A stretch of DNA of 64,000 bases from contig CASFZJ010000003.1 in assembly GCA_949299165.1 (NCBI GenBank), positions 1 through 64,000 on the forward strand, written 5' to 3'. The position numbers and the translations under genes are program-made. Of the stretch, positions 29,134 to 60,360 are shown piece after piece. How positions within the stretch are numbered: position 1 is the first letter of the stretch; each line of letters begins with the position of its first letter. Below the pieces are notes generated by a model that was given only the letters and a program-made list of their open reading frames with translations, made no database searches and was not told the origin of the DNA. This DNA is from an uncultured bacterium. Lineage in GTDB: Bacteria > Bacillota_I > Bacilli_A > RFN20 > CAG-826.

Positions 29134-30543
29134 ATGGATGAGAAAGAAAAGATAAATTTAAAAGAAGATAAAGAATATCAATATAACTTTAAAGATAAAG
29201 TTGATAGCATTTTTTCAACTGGTAAAGGAATTAATGAAGAAGTTGTAAAAGAAATTTCGCGTGCCAAAAACGAACCAGAATGGATGTTAAATTTTAGACT
29301 TGATGCTTATCGTAAATTCGTTAAAATGCCTTTTCCAAACTTTGGACCAGATGTTACAAATTTAGATTTTGATAGTTTTACTTATTTCACGCGTTATGCA
29401 AAAGGCGACAAAACAAACTGGGAAGAAGTTCCAGAAACAATTAAAAATACATTTAAAAAACTTGGTATTCCTGAACAAGAACAAAAATATTTAAGTGGAG
29501 CTGCCACTCAATATGAATCTGAAATGGTTTATCACAATATGCTTAAAGAAGTCGAAGAAAAAGGCGTTATTTTTCTTTCCACTGATATGGCACTTAAACT
29601 TTATCCTGATTTAGTTAAGAAATTTTTTGGTACAGTTGTGCCAGTTGCTGATAATAAATTTTCAGCATTAAATGGAGCAGTTTGGAGTGGAGGAAGTTTT
29701 ATTTATGTTCCAAAAGGTGTAAAACTTGAAAAACCTCTTCAATCTTATTTTAGAATTAACAACGAAAAAACTGGACAATTTGAAAGAACTCTGATTGTTT
29801 GCGATGAAGGAAGTGATGTGCATTATGTTGAAGGATGTACCGCTCCAATTTATTCAAAAGAATCACTTCATGCTGCAGTTGTTGAAATTATTGTCATGAA
29901 AGGTGCAAAATGTCGTTATTCAACTGTTCAAAATTGGTCGAATAATATCGTAAATTTAGTTACTAAAAGAGCTTATGTTTATGAAGATGGCATAATGGAG
30001 TGGATTGATGGAAATATTGGTAGTCAAATCAATATGAAATATCCTGCATGTGTCTTAAAGGGTGAAAGAGCAAAAGGAATTTGCATTTCAATTGCAGTTG
30101 CTGGAAAAGGTCAATTCCAAGATGCAGGAGCAAGAATGATTCACGAAGCGCCAAACACTACAAGTTCAATCATTTCTAAATCGATTGTTAAAAATGGTGG
30201 TATTTCCAACTATCGTGGAACTTGCAGAATTAAAAAAGAAGCAATTAACTCTAAAGCTCATGTTGAATGTGACACATTAATTCTTGATTCAATCTCTAAA
30301 TCAGATACTATACCAAAGAATGAATGCCACAATAATTCTAGTTTCTTAGAACACGAAGCAACAGTTAGTAAAATCAGCGAAGATCAATTATTCTATCTGA
30401 TGAGTAGAGGAATTAGCGAAAAAGATGCTACTCAAATGATTATTATGGGATTTATTGAACCATTCTCAAAAGAATTACCAATGGAATATGCAGTTGAGCT
30501 TAATCAACTTATTAAAATGGATATGGAGGGAAGTGTTGGTTAA
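29134..30543 (+). CDS. sufB: SufB, Fe-S scaffold
   Basis: The 469-aa protein is the main scaffold on which SufBCD builds [4Fe-4S] clusters. [44 protein letters not shown] and, near the end, [20 protein letters not shown] are family signatures. The length is full, unlike its short partner SufD. It starts 3 nt after sufU, and its stop overlaps mnmG as TAATG, so the suf operon runs into the mnmG-parB group with no terminator. Confidence 0.96.
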
Positions 30544-32432
30544 TGATTAATTACGATTATGATGTAATTGTAGTTGGTGGAGGTCACGCAGGATGTGAGG
30601 CTTCTTTTGCATGCGCCCATCGAGGCGACAACACTTTATTGATTACTTTAAATATAAAAATGGCGGCCAACATGCCTTGCAACCCTTCGATTGGCGGAAG
30701 TGCTAAAGGAATTGTAGTCCGTGAAATTGATGCTCTTGGCGGCATGATGGGTAAAATATGTGACCAAGAATATCTTCAAATGAAGATGTTAAATACTAAA
30801 AAAGGACCTGGTGTTCAATGTTTAAGGGCTCAAGCTGATAAAAAAAGATATCCTCACCACATGCAAGAAGCGCTTTTAAATACTAAAAATTTAACAGTTA
30901 TCGAAGGTGAAGTTAAAAAAGTGCTTCATGATGAAGAAAAAGTAATTGGTGTTGTTTTAGATAACGGCAAAGAAATATATGGAAAAGCGATAGTTCTTGC
31001 AACCGGAACATATATGGACAGCGAAATATTAAGAGGACACACTAAAATTTCGGCAGGACCTGATGGAGAAAAACCAAGTGTAGGATTAAGTGATTCATTA
31101 AAAGAAATGGGTTTAAAACTTCAAAGATTAAAAACCGGAACTCCACAAAGAATCGCAAAAGAATCGATTGATTTCTCAAAAACCGAGATTCAATATGGAA
31201 ATGTTGAAGATCAAGCTTTTAGTTACGAAACTCATTCATTTATTCCTTTAAAAGATCAAATTCCATGCTGGTTAATTTATACAACTCCAAAAACACATGA
31301 AATTATTCGTGCAAATTTAGATAAAAGTGCAATGTATGGAGGGCTTGTAACAGGTGTTGGACCAAGATATTGTCCTTCAATTGAAGATAAAATCGTTAGA
31401 TTTTCTGATAAACCTCGTCATCAATTGTTCCTAGAACCTGAAAGTTATGATACTAATTCAATTTATCTTCAAGGTTTTTCAACAAGTATGCCAGAGGATG
31501 TTCAAATAGAAATGGTTCATTCTTTACCAGGTCTCGAAAATGCAAAAATTTTAAAATATGCTTATGCGATTGAATATGAGGCGCTTGAAAGTGATGAATT
31601 TGATGTTTCATTAATGACCAAAAAACGGAAAGGTTTATTTATTAGTGGCCAAATTTGCGGCACAAGCGGATATGAAGAAGCCGCAGGATTAGGTTTAATA
31701 GCTGGAATTAACGCTTCTAAATATATCCATGGCGAAGAACCTTTTGTTCTTAAAAGGGATGAAGCTTATATTGGTGTAATGATTGATGATTTAATTACCA
31801 AAGGCACAAAAGAACCTTATAGATTATTAAGTAGCAGAGCTGAATATCGTTTACTTTTAAGAAGCGATAACGCTGATCTTAGACTTACTGAATATGGTCA
31901 CCAACTTGGTTTAATTAGCGAAGAAAGATATCAAAAATTCGTTGAAAAGAAGGAAAAAATGCATAAAATTGCTGAAATTCTTGATAAAACATATTTTGGT
32001 GCAACAAGTAATATTAACTCTTATTTAACTTCGCTCGGCTATGAAAAACTTTCTAGCGGCGTTAAAGGAACCGATATTTTAAAAAGAAATGGTGTTTCCT
32101 ATCATGAACTTAAAAATTATTTACCAATTAATGAAGATTTAAAACTTGATAATTTAAGTGAATTTGAGTTGGAAGTCATGATTAAGTATCAGGGATATAT
32201 TGAAAATGAAAGAAAAGAGGCACAAAAATTTAGAAAATTGGAAAATATTAAACTTTCCAAAGATATTGATTATCTAAATATGGATGGTTTAAGACTTGAA
32301 GCGAGACAAAAATTAGATAAAGTTAAACCTGATACATTAGGTCAAGCAAGTAGAATTAGTGGAGTAAATCCTAGCGATATTTCTGTTTTGGTATTAAATT
32401 TAAAAAAAGTGAAAGATTATGTTAATAAATGA
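30543..32432 (+). CDS. mnmG: tRNA uridine-5-carboxymethylaminomethyl modification enzyme MnmG
   Basis: This FAD enzyme works with MnmE at U34 of tRNAs. The GGGHAGCEAS dinucleotide loop is at about 12-21, followed by NPSIGGSAKG, and the C-terminal helical tail ends near KDY. The 629-aa length is normal. mnmG followed by rsmG and parA-parB is a classical near-origin cluster, though here mnmE is not upstream and suf genes are instead, so the locus is rearranged. Confidence 0.96.
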   Translation: MINYDYDVIVVGGGHAGCEASFACAHRGDNTLLITLNIKMAANMPCNPSIGGSAKGIVVREIDALGGMMGKICDQEYLQMKMLNTKKGPGVQCLRAQADKKRYPHHMQEALLNTKNLTVIEGEVKKVLHDEEKVIGVVLDNGKEIYGKAIVLATGTYMDSEILRGHTKISAGPDGEKPSVGLSDSLKEMGLKLQRLKTGTPQRIAKESIDFSKTEIQYGNVEDQAFSYETHSFIPLKDQIPCWLIYTTPKTHEIIRANLDKSAMYGGLVTGVGPRYCPSIEDKIVRFSDKPRHQLFLEPESYDTNSIYLQGFSTSMPEDVQIEMVHSLPGLENAKILKYAYAIEYEALESDEFDVSLMTKKRKGLFISGQICGTSGYEEAAGLGLIAGINASKYIHGEEPFVLKRDEAYIGVMIDDLITKGTKEPYRLLSSRAEYRLLLRSDNADLRLTEYGHQLGLISEERYQKFVEKKEKMHKIAEILDKTYFGATSNINSYLTSLGYEKLSSGVKGTDILKRNGVSYHELKNYLPINEDLKLDNLSEFELEVMIKYQGYIENERKEAQKFRKLENIKLSKDIDYLNMDGLRLEARQKLDKVKPDTLGQASRISGVNPSDISVLVLNLKKVKDYVNK

Positions 32433-33123
32433 TTTAAAAAATATAGATTTTCTTAAAGAACTTGATGAAAATAAACTTTTTTTGTTGGAAAAATACCAAA
32501 ATTTAACTTTAGAAATGAATAAAGTTATGAATTTAACTGGCAATGATACTCCTGAAGAATTCGCAACAAAAAATGTTTTAGATTCATTACTATTAATTAA
32601 ATATTTGGATTTTGATATTAAAGGAAAAAATATTATTGATATCGGAAGTGGGGCAGGTTTACCAGGTATTCCCCTTGCTATTTATTTTCCTGAAACGAAT
32701 TTCTATTTATTAGAACCAATTAAAAAAAGATGTAATTTCTTAAATAAAGTTGTCGAGGAACTTTCATTGAAAAATGTAGTAGTTATTAATGGACGTGCTG
32801 AAGAATTAGTAAAAGAAAAAAGATCTTTTTTTGATGTTGCAACCGCTCGAGCAGTGTCTAGTTTAAACATACTTTTAGAGCTTGCAATGCCTTTAGTTAA
32901 AATTGGTGGCATTTTTATCTCCTATAAGGGTAAAAATTACGAAAAGGAGTTAATTAGTAGTAAATTAGCACTTAACGAGTTGAATTCTAGTAGTAAATTA
33001 GTAGTAAATTGTGTAGTTCCAAATACTAATGATGAGAGAAGTTTTTTATTTTTTGAAAAAAAAGAAGAAATTTCTAACAAATATCCAAGAAGTTATAGTT
33101 TAATAAAAAAGAGACCTTTATGA
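32419..33123 (+). CDS. rsmG: 16S rRNA m7G527 methyltransferase RsmG
   Basis: The 234-aa SAM methyltransferase has NVLDSLLLIKYLDF followed by DIGSGAGLPGIPLAI (motif I), ATARAVSSLN and SYKGKNYEKEL. It methylates G527 of 16S rRNA. It overlaps mnmG by 14 nt, and its stop overlaps the parA start (ATGA). The gidA-gidB adjacency is conserved widely. Confidence 0.95.
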   Translation: MLINDLKNIDFLKELDENKLFLLEKYQNLTLEMNKVMNLTGNDTPEEFATKNVLDSLLLIKYLDFDIKGKNIIDIGSGAGLPGIPLAIYFPETNFYLLEPIKKRCNFLNKVVEELSLKNVVVINGRAEELVKEKRSFFDVATARAVSSLNILLELAMPLVKIGGIFISYKGKNYEKELISSKLALNELNSSSKLVVNCVVPNTNDERSFLFFEKKEEISNKYPRSYSLIKKRPL

Positions 33124-33917
33124 GTTGGATTATTTCGATTGTTAATCAAAAAGGCGGTGTAGGAAAAACAACGACCGCTATAAATTTAGCTTCTTCTTTG
33201 TCAAATTTTGGGAAGAAAGTTTTAATAGTGGATTTTGATGCCCAAGGTAATAGTTCAAGAGGTTATGGAATTGATATTTCATTATTAAATAAAACAATTT
33301 ACGAAGCTCTTATTGGAAAATATGATATTAATGCTATTATAAAGAAGACATTAGTTAAAAATGTTGATGTTGCACCAGCAAATTTGAGATTATCTAATTT
33401 TGAAAGTGAAACTGTCGGAACAACTCAAGAACCATTTAAAATTCTTAAAAATGCTTTATCAAAACTTACTAAAAATTATGATTTTATCTTAATTGATTGC
33501 CCACCAAGTTTAGGACTTTTGTCAATTAATGCTTTAAGCGCATCAAATTCAGCTTTAATCCCAGTTCAATGTGAATATTTTGCAATGGAAGGATTAGCAC
33601 AAGTCTTAGCAATTATTAAAAGAGTGCAATCTTCCTATAATCATGACCTTGAAATTGAAGGATTTTTGCTGACAATGTATGAAACTCGTTCAACTTTAGG
33701 TAAAGAAATCGTTAGTCAAGTACGTGGACTTTTTAGAGAAAATACATTTAATGTCGAAATTCCACGTAATATTTCAATTAGTGAATCAAGCGGAAAAGGT
33801 ATTCCGGTAAATTTATATAAGCCAACCAGTGCTGGAGCAAGAGCTTACATGCAACTTGCAAAGGAGATTTTAGAAAATGAAAGCAGAAGAAAAGAAGAAC
33901 GGAACCGTTCAAAGTGA
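33120..33917 (+). CDS. parA: ParA/Soj chromosome-partitioning ATPase
   Basis: The 265-aa deviant Walker ATPase has NQKGGVGKTTTAINLASSL at 8-26, VDFDAQGNSSRG and DFILIDCPPSLGLL. It oscillates on the nucleoid and moves ParB-bound origins. Its last 41 nt overlap parB in another frame. No parS site was found by eye in this window, so the sites should lie elsewhere near the origin. Confidence 0.95.
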   Translation: MSWIISIVNQKGGVGKTTTAINLASSLSNFGKKVLIVDFDAQGNSSRGYGIDISLLNKTIYEALIGKYDINAIIKKTLVKNVDVAPANLRLSNFESETVGTTQEPFKILKNALSKLTKNYDFILIDCPPSLGLLSINALSASNSALIPVQCEYFAMEGLAQVLAIIKRVQSSYNHDLEIEGFLLTMYETRSTLGKEIVSQVRGLFRENTFNVEIPRNISISESSGKGIPVNLYKPTSAGARAYMQLAKEILENESRRKEERNRSK

Positions 33918-34710
33918 CTTAAAAACTTTAATTGAACGTTTCTCAAAAAATGATGTTATCAGCGACATCGACAAAAATTATCAAAGAGAAAATGTTAAAT
34001 ATTTAACATATGATGATATTGTTGATAATGCATTTATTAAAGAAGCAAAAATCGATAAAGAAACTATCAAAAACATCGAAAAATCTATCATTGAAAGAGG
34101 TATTTATAATCCTTTAATTGTTAGAGAAAGCAAAAAAGGAAAATATGAAGTAATTATTGGTAGAAAAAGATGGCTTGCTTCTAAAAAACTTGAATATAAA
34201 AAGATCCCTGTAATTATTAAAAATTACGATGATCAAGAAACATTATTAATTCTTCTTTGCGATGCAAGGGAAAATAAAAACTTTAATCCAATCGAAATTG
34301 CTTTAGTTATAAAACATTTAGCTGAAGATTTTGGTTATAAAATGAAAGATATTGCTGATATTATGCATGTTTCTACTGGTCAAGTAAGTAATTATATTTC
34401 CTTATTATCTATGCCAGAAGATGTTATTTATGATATCTCAACAAATAAACTTTCATTTGGTCACGCAAAAGCTATTTCTAGACTTAAAGAAAAAGATATC
34501 AAAACAATTATTAAAAAGATTTATGCTTATAATTTAAGCGTTAGAGATACTGAAAAACTCGCATTTAATCTTGAAGACAAAAATTTAAAGATCAAAAAAG
34601 ATTATGTTATTAGAAAGAAAGATAAAAGTATTATTATCAAGATTAATAACGATGTAAATTTTGATAAAATCTACAAAAAAATCTCGGAATTTTTAAAAAA
34701 AGAAATATAA
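33877..34710 (+). CDS. parB: ParB/Spo0J-like partition protein
   Basis: The 277-aa protein has the ParB N-terminal CTPase region with YNPLIVRESKKGKYEVIIGRKRWLAS and ENKNFNPIEIALVIKHL, then a helix-turn-helix (MKDIADIMHVSTGQVSNYI) and a short C-terminal dimerisation part. The G-E-R-R-x-R-A motif appears as GRKRWLA, which is a departure. ATG 33877 is served by AGGAG inside parA. The 41-nt overlap with parA is unusually long. It could be Noc rather than ParB; the adjacency to parA favours ParB. Confidence 0.88.
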   Translation: MKAEEKKNGTVQSDLKTLIERFSKNDVISDIDKNYQRENVKYLTYDDIVDNAFIKEAKIDKETIKNIEKSIIERGIYNPLIVRESKKGKYEVIIGRKRWLASKKLEYKKIPVIIKNYDDQETLLILLCDARENKNFNPIEIALVIKHLAEDFGYKMKDIADIMHVSTGQVSNYISLLSMPEDVIYDISTNKLSFGHAKAISRLKEKDIKTIIKKIYAYNLSVRDTEKLAFNLEDKNLKIKKDYVIRKKDKSIIIKINNDVNFDKIYKKISEFLKKEI

Positions 34711-55398: not shown

Positions 55399-55402
55399 AT
55401 AA

Positions 55403-55411
55403 TGATATACT
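55403..55411 (+). promoter_or_regulatory. Extended -10 promoter of lepA, leaderless geometry
   Basis: TGATATACT is an extended -10 box whose end is 8 nt before ATG 55420. No ribosome site precedes the ATG. Confidence 0.45.
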
Positions 55412-55419
55412 TTTCAAGT

Positions 55420-57234
55420 ATGAAATACGATCAATCAAAAATTAGAAATTTTAGTGTTATTGCACATATCGATCATGGTAAATCGACTCTTTGTGATCGC
55501 ATTTTAGAGCTTACTGAAACTATCGAAAAAAGAGAGATGAAATCCCAAATTCTTGATGATATGGATCTTGAAAGAGAAAGAGGAATTACTATTAAATTAA
55601 ATGCTGTCACTGTAAATTATCATTCGCTTGATGGAAATGATTATATTTTTAATTTAATCGACACTCCTGGGCACGTCGATTTTACATACGAAGTCAGTAG
55701 ATCTTTAGCCGCATGTGAAGGTGCAATTTTAGTAATTGATGCTACTCAAGGAGTAGAAGCTCAAACCTTAGCAAATATGTATCTTGCAATCGATAATAAT
55801 CTCGAAATTGTTCCTGTTATTAACAAAATTGATTTAGCTAGTGCAAGAGTTGAAGCATGTAAAGATGAAATTACCAAGCGAATTGGGCTTGCTGGAGATG
55901 CTGCAATTCCAGTTAGTGCTAAAACAGGCGATAATATTCGCGATGTTTTAGAAAGAATAGTTACAGACATTCCTGCTCCTAGTGGAAGTAATGAGGCACC
56001 TTTAAAAGCGCTTATTTTTGACTCATATTACGATTCTTATCGTGGTGTTGTTGTTTTAATTAGAATTAAAGAAGGAACTGTAAAAGTTGGCGATACAATC
56101 CATTTAATGCGCTCTGGTGCGGATTTTTTAGTTACTGAACTAGGAATTCGTACACCAAAAGAAATGCAAACTGATGCTTTATATTGTGGTGAAGTTGGCT
56201 ATTTATGTGCTCAAATTAAAGATATTAAAGAAGTGCGAGTCGGTGACACAATCACTTTAAAAAATAAGCCTGCTTTATTACCTTTGCCGGGTTACAAAAA
56301 GATAAATCCAATGGTTTATTGTGGAATTTACCCAAGTGATTCTAAAAAATATGAAGATTTAAAAGAAGCTCTTGAAAAATTATCATTAAACGATGCATCT
56401 TTACGCTTCGAACCAGAAACATCTCAAGCTTTAGGATTTGGCTTTAGATGTGGATTTTTAGGTCTTTTGCATATGGATGTTATTCAAGAAAGACTTGAAA
56501 GAGAATATAATTTAGATTTAATTTTAACTGCGCCAAGCGTTATTTATAAAGTTTGCTTAACAAATGGAGAAGAATTTGAACTCAGTAATCCAAGCGAATT
56601 ACCTGATTTAACAACAATTGCTCATATCGAAGAACCATTTGTTAAAGCAGAGATCATGATGCCAAAAGATTACATTGGTCCGGTTATGCAACTTTGCCAA
56701 GATAGAAGAGGAATTTATAAAAATCTTGAATATTTTGATGATACAAGAATGATTCTCACTTATGATATGCCATTAAGTGAAATTATTTTTAACTTTTTTG
56801 ATAAATTAAAATCCTATACAAAAGGTTATGCAAGTTTAGATTACGAATTTGCTGATTATAAAGAAAGTAATCTTTCAAAAATGGATATCTTACTAAATGG
56901 AGAAGTGATAGACGCTTTAAGTTCGATTGTTTATAAACCATTTGCTTATAAACGCGGACTCAAGATTGTCTCCAAATTAAAAGAGGTTATTCCAAGACAA
57001 CAATTTGAAATCCCTGTTCAAGCTGCAATAAATGGGAAAATCATTGCTCGTGCAGATATAAAAGCAGTAAGAAAAGACGTTTTAGCTAAATGTTATGGTG
57101 GAGATATCACAAGAAAAAAGAAACTTTTAGAGAAACAAAAAGAGGGTAAAAAGCGTATGAAGTCAATTGGCTCAGTTGATGTCCCGCAAGAAGCTTTTAT
57201 GTCACTTTTAAGCATTGATGACGATGAAAGTTGA
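55420..57234 (+). CDS. lepA: Elongation factor 4 (LepA)
   Basis: The 604-aa GTPase has AHIDHGKST (G1), the RERGITI switch I, DTPGHVDF (G3), NKID (G4), then EF-G-like domains II, III and V and the LepA-specific C-terminal domain with [25 protein letters not shown]. It aids ribosome function under stress. I chose ATG 55420, where the family's [16 protein letters not shown] alignment begins, over the ATG at 55402. Confidence 0.96.
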
Positions 57235-57284
57235 TAATTTGTAGATAATTGGTAGATAACTAGTAGATAATTAGTAAATATTCA
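57230..57284 (+). repeat. Five 11-bp tandem repeats upstream of the Fic-like gene
   Basis: Units GTTGATAATTT (57230), GTAGATAATTG (57241), GTAGATAACTA (57252), GTAGATAATTA (57263) and GTAAATATTCA (57274) follow each other without gaps. The first overlaps the lepA stop codon. They end 1 nt before the -35 box of the next gene, so all units face one side of the helix upstream of the promoter, as activator sites often do. Confidence 0.65.
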
Positions 57285-57340: not shown

Positions 57341-59005
57341 ATGGCTGTTAATGAATTCATAAAAAAATTTAGCAATGAAATATATGCTACAAAAAATGAT
57401 GTTATCAGAGAAATGAAAACTCCTTTAGTTGATGGAATTTGGTCACAAGTAATTGAATATAGAAAAGCTTTTTATGAAACTTTGACATTAACAAATTATG
57501 ATTCAACTCGTTTTTCAGTCTGTTTAACACCAAATATCTCAAAGAAAATTAATAATTTTGAAAGAAAATTAATATCAATATTAAACAAATATTCAAAGCT
57601 TCAAAGAAACTTTGCGAATGAATATTTTAAAAATAAAACTTACAAGAAAATTCTAAGATATATCGCAAGAAAATATAAAATTGATATCCAAGATACAGTT
57701 TTAGATGGAATAATTGACGGTACAATTACTTTCAATTTGCCAGCCGATCAAACAATCATTCAAAGATATTATTCTTGTTTACAAGATATTGAAGAAAATT
57801 ATCTCCAAGATATTGATGAAAATACACTTGGAAATTTCTATTCCAAATTAATGGGAACAGATGATTTAACTGAATATTATCGTAAAACTGATACTAATAA
57901 ATATAATGGATATAGTATCGGCAGATTAAAAATTGGAGTAGCACCTCAAAATATTGAAAATTCTGTTAATCAATTAATACGCTTCATTAATTATGACAAT
58001 CAAAGCTTAATCGTTAAAGCAGTATCAACTTTCTATTATATTTATTACATTAGACCATTTGAAAATTATAGCGAAGAAATAGCCTTATTAATGCTTAAAA
58101 AGGTCCTTGCATACAATGATATTAGTTCAGTTGCCGCATTATTATCTTTTGAAGCATTACTTGAAAATAAAGACGAACTTGAAGGCAAAATTGCTGATTG
58201 TCAAAAATACTATGATTTAACCTATTTAATTAACTATGTTTTAGATAAGATTGAGCCATTAACCGATCGTATAGCTGACGATATCGTCGAATCTCAAAAT
58301 GTTACGATCAAAAAGGAACTTTATCAAGCTGATCCAGAACCAATTTCTGAACAAAAAGAGCCTATTTTTGAAAGTGGCGCTCAAACAACAGCAATTCCAA
58401 CTATTGAGAAAGCATTTATTGAAAAAGAACCTCTAACAAGCGAAGAATTAAGAGGTGAACCAATTCAAGAAGGTGTTTTTGAACCAATACACGAAGAAAA
58501 AGTTCAAGAAGTAACTCAAGAACCAGCAGAAGAAAAAGAAGAAACTGTTGCTCCTGTACTCGAAGAAGTTCAAGAACACGTCGAAACCATTGAAGAACCA
58601 AAACAAGAAGAAAAAGATATTTCTGTTGGTAGAACCGAAGAAGAAATTAAAGCTTATGAAGATTTAGTTAAACCTGTTCAACCAACATTAAATGGCTCAG
58701 AAAAAGTTAATTTTGCTCAAAATATTGCAATTTCTAATGTTCCAACCGGATTAACTGAAGATGAAGCGACCAGACTTGAAGAACATCTTATGGAAATGAA
58801 TCCAAATTTATCCCATGGACAAGCTTATTTCTACGCACGTCATTGTACAATTGGAATGTATTATACTGTTGATCAATACAAAAAATGCGTTGGATGTGCT
58901 TATGAAACGGCAAGAAGTAGCATGAATAATTTAGTTTTGTTAGGTTACTACAAAAAAGAATTATTAAAGAAAAAATTTGTATATCTTCCTGTAAAAAGAA
59001 ATTAA
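57341..59005 (+). CDS. Degenerate Fic-fold protein with acidic linker and C-terminal winged-helix-like domain
   Basis: The 554-aa protein has an all-helical N-terminal region. Within it 190-256 resembles a Fic domain: GRLKIGVAPQNIENSVNQLI, then FYYIYYIRPFENYSEEIALL. The catalytic H-P-F-x-D-G-N-G-R is replaced by R238-P-F-E-N-Y-S-E-E, so AMP transfer is not expected. Residues about 325-450 are a Pro/Glu/Gln-rich acidic linker. Residues about 488-554 (SHGQAYFYARHCT, then YETARSSMNNLVLLGYYKK and KKKFVYLP) look like a winged helix. It may be a scaffold or regulator. No family name is certain. Confidence 0.6.
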   Translation: MAVNEFIKKFSNEIYATKNDVIREMKTPLVDGIWSQVIEYRKAFYETLTLTNYDSTRFSVCLTPNISKKINNFERKLISILNKYSKLQRNFANEYFKNKTYKKILRYIARKYKIDIQDTVLDGIIDGTITFNLPADQTIIQRYYSCLQDIEENYLQDIDENTLGNFYSKLMGTDDLTEYYRKTDTNKYNGYSIGRLKIGVAPQNIENSVNQLIRFINYDNQSLIVKAVSTFYYIYYIRPFENYSEEIALLMLKKVLAYNDISSVAALLSFEALLENKDELEGKIADCQKYYDLTYLINYVLDKIEPLTDRIADDIVESQNVTIKKELYQADPEPISEQKEPIFESGAQTTAIPTIEKAFIEKEPLTSEELRGEPIQEGVFEPIHEEKVQEVTQEPAEEKEETVAPVLEEVQEHVETIEEPKQEEKDISVGRTEEEIKAYEDLVKPVQPTLNGSEKVNFAQNIAISNVPTGLTEDEATRLEEHLMEMNPNLSHGQAYFYARHCTIGMYYTVDQYKKCVGCAYETARSSMNNLVLLGYYKKELLKKKFVYLPVKRN

Positions 59006-59018
59006 AGAGGTGTTTTAA

Positions 59019-59279
59019 ATGTTACCAATTAGAGTATTTGATGACTGGATTAATCAACCATGGGCAATATTCTTATTTATTGTCATAATTTTTGGTGTTT
59101 TAGCTCTTGGTGTATTCTTATTATCAAAATTTGTTATAAACAAAAACAAGGATAAAGAAGAAAAACCAGACGAAAAAACATTAGCAAATGAAAATCTTAG
59201 TAGATTTTTAGAAGATGTTGAAGATCCTGAAACTCAAAAACAATTTGATGAATACGAAAAAGAAAACAAAGATAAATAG
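59019..59279 (+). CDS. Small single-span membrane protein
   Basis: The 86-aa protein has one hydrophobic helix (about 15-38) followed by a basic patch and an acidic, hydrophilic cytosolic tail. GAGGTG lies 10 nt before ATG 59019. No family was recognised. It follows the Fic-like gene by 13 nt and overlaps hemW by 32 nt, so the three form an operon. Confidence 0.65.
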   Translation: MLPIRVFDDWINQPWAIFLFIVIIFGVLALGVFLLSKFVINKNKDKEEKPDEKTLANENLSRFLEDVEDPETQKQFDEYEKENKDK

Positions 59280-60360
59280 TTTATATATTCATATTCCTTT
59301 TTGTGATTCAATATGTCCTTATTGCGATTTTACTAAATTCTTAAGTAAGGACATTTTTAAGTTTGAATACATAAATCAATTAATTAGAGATTTAAATGAA
59401 TTAATCGCAGCAAATTATAAATTTAAAACAATTTACATTGGCGGAGGAACACCAAGTTGTTTATCTATTAAAGATTTAATTAAATTACTTAAAAAAGTTA
59501 AGCTTTTAATCGATTTTGATACAAATTACGAATTCACAATTGAAGCTAATCCTGAATCGATTGATGAAGATAAATTAAGATTATTTAAAAGTGCAGGAGT
59601 TAATAGAATTTCTATCGGAATTCAAAGTTTTAATGAGGAATTACTAGAAACAATTAATCGAAATTATCATATAAATTACTTTAATTTGATAAAAACTGTT
59701 AAAAAATATATCAATAATATAAATATAGACTTAATTTATGGTTTACCAGATCAAACCAAAGAAAATCTTTTAGATGATTTAAATAATTTTATTAAATTGG
59801 ATATTAATCATATTTCAACCTACAGTCTTTCAATTAATCCAATGTCCATTTTTTATGTAAAAGGATATAAAGAAATTGATGAAGATTTATCACGCGAATT
59901 TTATGACACAATTTTAGATTTTCTTAGAAAACATGGTTTTGAAAGATATGAAGTGAGCAATTTTGCAAAACCAGGTTATGAAAGCAAACATAATTTAACT
60001 TATTGGAATAATGAAGAATATATTGGTTTAGGAGTTGGTGCAAGTGGATATATTCATCCTTATCGATATAAAAATTCATCAAATTTAACTTCCTACTTAC
60101 ACGGAGAACGTAATTTAGAAAAAGAATTTATTTCAAAAAATGATAATAAAATATATTTTTTACTATGCAATTTGCGAAAAAAACAGGGATTTTTGTTAAA
60201 AACATATGAAATTTTGTTTAAAAGTAGGTTTTTTGATGATTTTTCTGGAAAAATTGAAAAATTCCTAGAAAATAATTTAATAATTACAGAAAATGATAGA
60301 ATTTTTTGTTCTGATGAAGGGCTTATAAAACTTGATTTAATACTAAAAGAAATTATTTAA
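59248..60360 (+). CDS. hemW: HemW-like radical-SAM protein
   Basis: The 370-aa protein starts with LYIHIPFCDSICPYCDF, giving the C19-x3-C23-x2-C26 cluster ligands, and continues with YIGGGTPSCL, RISIGIQSFNEELL and HNLTYWNNEEYIGLG. HemW was first annotated as oxygen-independent coproporphyrinogen oxidase; it lacks that activity and binds haem. There are no haem genes in the window. In Firmicutes hemW sits between lepA and hrcA, as here. The start, inside the preceding gene, has no ribosome site and is uncertain. Confidence 0.88.
   Translation: MNTKKKTKINSLYIHIPFCDSICPYCDFTKFLSKDIFKFEYINQLIRDLNELIAANYKFKTIYIGGGTPSCLSIKDLIKLLKKVKLLIDFDTNYEFTIEANPESIDEDKLRLFKSAGVNRISIGIQSFNEELLETINRNYHINYFNLIKTVKKYINNINIDLIYGLPDQTKENLLDDLNNFIKLDINHISTYSLSINPMSIFYVKGYKEIDEDLSREFYDTILDFLRKHGFERYEVSNFAKPGYESKHNLTYWNNEEYIGLGVGASGYIHPYRYKNSSNLTSYLHGERNLEKEFISKNDNKIYFLLCNLRKKQGFLLKTYEILFKSRFFDDFSGKIEKFLENNLIITENDRIFCSDEGLIKLDLILKEII

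Follow-up and report, generated by a model that had tools for sequence, protein, structure and literature searches.

What is the role of a protein that keeps the outline of a Fic domain after losing its catalytic residues, and that joins this domain through a long acidic linker to a putative winged helix? Such a protein, here termed X (554 amino acids; 57341..59005), is encoded in the window studied here, that is, the whole analysed stretch of 64,000 nucleotides from the 1.43-Mb genome of an uncultured member of the Bacilli. Its gene is flanked by the syntenic markers lepA upstream (55402..57234) and hemW downstream (59215..60360, with the true start probably after the ORF start), all three on the forward strand, as are the other features of this locus. 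On the basis of profile comparisons, orthologue alignments and the distribution of a short repeat across related genomes, we suggest that X is probably an undescribed chromosome-terminus protein.

X can be divided into an N-terminal module (residues 1–61; 57341..57523) that is kept even without the Fic part, a degenerate Fic domain (about residues 62–318; 57524..58294), an acidic and fast-evolving linker (319–462; 58295..58726; pI 4.3, 37 D/E versus 14 K/R) and a C-terminal winged-helix domain (463–554; 58727..59002; pI 8.8). The winged-helix label comes from the sequence pattern, in which we read a DeoR-like arrangement of helices, and from weak Penicillinase_R matches in 12 of 27 members; no match of X to DnaB/DnaD, which the initial annotation had named for a fold comparison, was found in Pfam or NCBIfam. 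Structure predictions for X aligned with one 94% homologue (pLDDT 32), and for the winged helix alone (pLDDT 50), were too poor for use. The next gene (59019..59279) encodes Y, an 86-amino-acid protein with a charged tail that looks, as had been claimed, like a small membrane protein with one transmembrane segment. As a small transmembrane gene adjoins X in most loci of the order, a membrane tether of X is possible. TIGR04561 was considered as the identity of Y and rejected, given that nothing scored over the cut-off and that it matched at random in control genomes; an Rfam scan of 52–64 kb gave no match.

PF02661 matches X at E = 6e-4, which is under the Pfam cut-off, and matches 17 of 27 X orthologues with a best E of 8.7e-8. 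When a profile of the X family was aligned by hhalign with 13 intact Fic proteins, the match reached E = 3.9e-14, and the Fic homology exceeds chance. The first description of the ORF as a pseudo-Fic protein with an acidic linker and a winged helix is confirmed. Against PDB sequences, the 27-orthologue profile found the Fic protein 4rgl best (E = 7.7e-9), together with Fic 8cil (E = 1.4e-5) and, weakly, FICD; it also matched intact Fic proteins of relatives, one of them from X's own genome. Ordinary Fic proteins with intact HPFxDGNGR are encoded in that genome at L073:605-1366 (contig C2) and L074:471-1532 (contig C26). In the hhalign register, IRPFENYSEE of X (residues 237–246; 58049..58078) stands where the Fic motif HPFx[D/E]GN[G/K]R would be and is aligned to IHPFxDGNGR of the intact proteins, with R238 standing for the catalytic His and Y243-S244-E245-E246 for GNGR, exactly as the initial annotation had placed them.

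The same loss extends to every relative in the orthologue alignment that had been proposed as a check. Among 90 distinct X orthologues, the position of the catalytic His is taken by Lys in 63, Arg in 14 and other residues in 13, and by His in none, and no HPFxxGN occurs elsewhere in any of these sequences. Pro239 is invariant (90 of 90), and orthologues of the order share a new conserved motif, [YF][VI][KR]PFxx[YFH][NS][ED]E. In the stretch aligned with the inhibitory helix [ST]xxxE[GN] (about residues 104–128), no conserved Glu was found. Because the catalytic motif is lost in all sampled members, X is a pseudo-Fic protein and not an active Fic enzyme, and its Fic region is, to judge from sequence, a pseudo-Fic domain in every member sampled. 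By profile, this domain is homologous to that of Fic/Doc (fido) AMP-transferases with a C-terminal winged helix (for example, S. oneidensis Fic 2qc0); unlike these, X is without HPFx[D/E]GN[G/K]R in 90 of 90 orthologues, has a long acidic linker, is a core gene at lepA–hemW and is associated with boxes at dif (see below). Fusions of Fic with helix–turn–helix domains are known, DUF1612 is described as a remote Fic plus a winged helix, and AvrB has the fido fold without the motif (PMC2686095).

Of 146 genomes of the family, 138 have an X orthologue, as do 182 of the 196 genomes of the order, and the gene arrangement lepA–X–hemW is retained in essentially every locus examined (one locus ends before lepA); no relatives were found among viral contigs. 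Within the order, dN/dS is mostly 0.01–0.25 for the Fic part, indicating purifying selection, 0.15–0.58 for the linker and 0–0.08 for the winged helix, by far the best conserved part of X.

What this winged helix may recognize is suggested by the X promoter region. In the lepA–X spacer, TRF reports a repeat of period 11 with 4.7 copies (57229..57280), AGTAGATAATT, an array of the direct repeat in 11-bp phase TTAGTA-N5-TTAGTA, which we term the X-box. Across 90 lepA–X spacers, TAGTA-N6-AGT at spacing 11 is present in 69, versus 0–9 at other spacings and 3 on the reverse strand; when up to 2 mismatches in the 12 positions are allowed, TTAGTA-N5-TTAGTA is found at 86 of 90 X loci. The box also stands in exact form upstream of X in the Mollicutes-like loci L154, L156, L158 and L159 (Mollicutes-like genomes being those with TGA as a sense codon), and is missing at X in the Mollicutes loci L155 and L157 and in the Erysipelotrichaceae-like loci (a label inferred from gene content). 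By our own reading of the sequences, the promoter boxes of X often lie directly upstream of a −35-like element. Exact X-boxes outnumber a reversed-pattern control in X-bearing groups, with 169 versus 45 in the host's own genus and 94 versus 33 in group f3; ten genomes lacking a clear X show no excess (7 versus 19).

Many X-box arrays lie between convergent genes, away from promoters. Genome G000 contains 18 exact X-box pairs, and on contig C3 the gene strand and GC skew flip sharply at ~96 kb, which marks the replication terminus; the strongest arrays surround it. In three other genomes, the skew switch and an array stand at 184,333 and 184,271–184,309 (G011), 83,192 and 83,395–83,422 (G041), and 124,107 and 124,511–124,538 (G174), so that the distance from the cumulative-skew maximum to the array is about 25–400 bp in these three and 3.6 kb in G000. 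The X gene itself lies 35–57 kb from the skew switch in four genomes. Exact arrays gather around dif: 5 of the 13 in G000 lie within 20 kb of it (p = 2e-5), 9 of the 13 in G011 within 45 kb (p = 2e-7) and all 5 in G041 within 56 kb (p = 1e-5). These p-values are only indicative because the distance limits were picked after the data had been seen; in G000, roughly half of the exact arrays are away from dif. A reading of the X-boxes as promoter operators was dropped, given that most strong boxes are at the terminus and many lie between convergent genes. In the window, a cluster of mnmG–rsmG–parA–parB occupies 30543–34710, ~65 kb from the terminus on the same contig and not near an origin, and no dnaA was recognised within the window.

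The most regular placement is found beside dif itself, the site at which completed chromosomes are separated. A scan with a Firmicutes dif consensus gave one good dif per terminus. An X-box array lies ~90–150 bp from the right arm of dif (the XerD side, by the usual naming) and is inverted relative to dif. As the boxes themselves had guided the choice of stretches in G000, G011, G041 and G174, further genomes were picked by X position alone, and dif was reached in this way in six (G006, G019, G100, G052, G094 and G104). All six have an X-box at ~90–150 bp from dif and inverted (exact in four, with one mismatch in two), and in G104, a complete 1.06-Mb chromosome, the sole exact X-box of the genome is 105 bp from dif. 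When all 4096 hexamers were ranked as 11-bp repeats beside dif, TTAGTA and its one-base shift TAGTAG came out on top (exact in 8 of 10, and present in all 10 when one mismatch was allowed), with nothing comparable on the other side of dif (0). Each of 30 dif loci, drawn from several families, has an X-box no more than 200 bp from dif, mostly at 103–148 bp; in the g37 genus it is on the opposite side of dif, and in the f5 group dif lies within an X-box cluster of ~500 bp. No dif was found near four exact boxes of genomes without a clear X.

The f5 dif spacers (L220:4504-5008 in G178, L221:4464-5009 in G195, L222 and L223) are packed with X-boxes in both orientations and adjoin a gene that resembles an MTA/SAH nucleosidase; the idea that these dense clusters mark the origin was dropped once dif turned up inside them. 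A separate observation is that 17 of 30 genomes (including G011, G174, G006, G019, G100, G052, G170 and G164) have an exact DnaA-box-like TTWTCCACA no more than 200 bp from dif, nearly always at a distance of 73–99 bp and between dif and the X-box. Its gap to the X-box mostly measures 20–21, 31–32 or 41–42 bp, values that rise in steps of 11 bp.

On the simplest reading, the X-box is bound by X: two distant lineages have the box in front of X, boxes are in excess in X-bearing groups and not in the ten genomes lacking a clear X, no part of X is better conserved than the winged helix, and X lies close to the terminus in four genomes. Both the binding of X to the X-boxes and its role at the terminus are what we infer from these patterns, and the DNA-binding role that the initial annotation had assigned to X gains indirect support from promoter boxes that are conserved and recur at dif and the terminus. 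A different protein (for example, an OmpR/PhoB-type regulator or a further terminus factor) could instead bind the boxes, with X merely one controlled gene, and we give this perhaps a one-in-several chance. The sites of OmpR/PhoB-type regulators are typically 11-bp direct repeats, and the position of the X promoter boxes next to a −35-like element would suit such a regulator; however, the concentration of strong boxes at the terminus and dif, many between convergent genes, the recurrence of the promoter box in Mollicutes, and an excess over control that follows the presence of X all speak against it.

Whichever protein binds the boxes, the Fic part might be a functionless, decaying remnant, with only the N terminus and winged helix of X being of importance, a proposal that is compatible with X as the binder and with the other alternatives and that we consider rather unlikely. 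It draws on distant relatives. At the same locus, Erysipelotrichaceae-like genomes (f25) encode a protein of ~300 amino acids with the X N terminus and winged helix (profile match to X, E = 6.7e-27), in which the Fic part is not recognisable and the profile gives no Fic match, and one Mollicutes-like orthologue is shortened to 217 amino acids with the Fic part absent. Some Mollicutes-like orthologues retain a degenerate Fic region (full-length profile match to X, E = 2.6e-39), and no orthologue with an intact Fic motif was found, Mollicutes-like and Erysipelotrichaceae-like members included. The motif was lost either before the split of the order, the Erysipelotrichaceae-like and the Mollicutes groups, or repeatedly. 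Because some lineages have lost the Fic part, it is dispensable for some functions of X, and the claim that it targets the winged helix is not established, given that these relatives kept the N terminus and winged helix without it. Against decay stand the retention of the Fic part in all 90 proteins examined within the order, under the purifying selection noted above, and the new motif that has taken the place of the catalytic one. The earlier view that catalysis was lost yet the domain retained thus holds family-wide, and the interpretation from which it came is partly supported overall.

It is improbable, in our estimate, that X acts as a polar trap for replication forks, which would be the third such invention after Tus and RTP, with boxes that face the terminus and block outgoing forks. 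Like the Tus–Ter system of E. coli and the RTP–Ter system of B. subtilis, X has candidate sites clustered at the terminus, one of them in its own promoter, and a gene near the terminus, and RTP is a winged-helix protein, as proposed for the X C terminus. The boxes are non-palindromic, their arrays flank the skew switch and 25 of 34 arrays are oriented towards dif (p = 0.009); the two known fork-trap genes, tus and rtp, also carry a ter site in the promoter through which they regulate themselves (PMC10331603). Unlike the sites of Tus and RTP, however, the candidate sites of X are direct repeats in tandem with an 11-bp period and are linked to dif, and their polarity is suggestive only, falling to 20 of 29 (p = 0.06) without the dif-adjacent arrays. 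Furthermore, the best conserved site keeps a fixed distance from dif that a fork trap would not need, and the genome of G104 contains a single exact box. Pfam scans up to E = 1 gave no match of X to the Tus, RTP or MatP families. That X is an ordinary autoregulated transcription factor with incidental boxes at the terminus, as the box upstream of its promoter and the DeoR-like helix pattern might suggest, is very unlikely in view of the dif geometry, which is fixed in all 10 genomes compared, and of G104 with its single exact box.

We favour, with moderate confidence, a model in which X binds the X-boxes through its winged helix, regulates its own gene and acts at dif and the terminus, with the pseudo-Fic domain as an interaction module. 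The C-terminal domain would recognise the 11-bp-phased repeats TTAGTA-N5-TTAGTA, those in the promoter of X would provide autoregulation, and the dif-side array and further arrays across roughly 100 kb around dif would load X onto the terminus. There, X may assist or organise the resolution of chromosome dimers and the segregation of the terminus, in a mode that can be likened to MatP, or to PepA, ArgR or ArcA at plasmid cer/psi. The acidic linker may let the DNA-bound domain reach partners, and the dead Fic domain may contact them, with topoisomerase IV/gyrase, the Xer/FtsK machinery and the membrane protein Y as candidates. Topoisomerase IV and gyrase are known targets of active Fic enzymes, and we speculate that a pseudo-Fic domain still binding a former Fic target would recruit that target.

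The favoured model has parallels in known systems. Like MatP–matS, X has several candidate sites across a terminus domain; matS is a palindrome and MatP a ribbon–helix–helix protein, unrelated to X in sequence. In E. coli, MatP modulates the interaction of Topo IV with XerCD at dif (PMC4865107), and MatP interacts with membranes (PMC6538776). The geometry of the X-box beside dif, that is, a candidate protein-binding sequence at a fixed distance from an Xer core site, is like that of the accessory sequences of plasmid cer/psi; unlike these, the site is the chromosomal dif and the presumed binder a pseudo-Fic protein. The chromosomal dif of E. coli relies on FtsK, not on accessory sequences. At cer/psi, the sites for PepA, ArgR or ArcA lie up to about 180 bp from the Xer core site (PMC5357621). 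A search of open-access papers for tandem repeats at dif, or for a terminus winged helix in Mollicutes, found nothing relevant, an absence that is no proof of novelty.

A bolder version, which we hold to be doubtful as a whole, is that X is a dedicated dif and terminus factor of the order and some Mollicutes, independent of Tus, RTP and MatP, that binds tandem boxes by dif next to a DnaA box while its inactive AMP-transferase domain keeps a former target of Fic (for example, topoisomerase IV) at dif unmodified. Few groups are known to have a dedicated terminus protein (Tus, RTP or MatP). Should X prove to be another, small-genome Bacilli and Mollicutes would own a non-homologous terminus system in which a dead enzyme is tied to the chromosomal dif by an accessory array, a new fate for a Fic domain would be established, and the use of accessory sites by chromosomal Xer recombination, as in plasmids, would become directly testable. 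The X-box offers a simple locator of dif and the terminus in the fragmented genomes of the order. In the Erysipelotrichaceae-like loci (L062:4885-5592, L085:3377-4105 and others), X is followed by a gene for a receiver-like/Spo0A_C protein (PF08769, E = 2e-17), and the X promoter carries, where the X-box would be, the sequence TTTGTCGAA, which resembles a Spo0A box.
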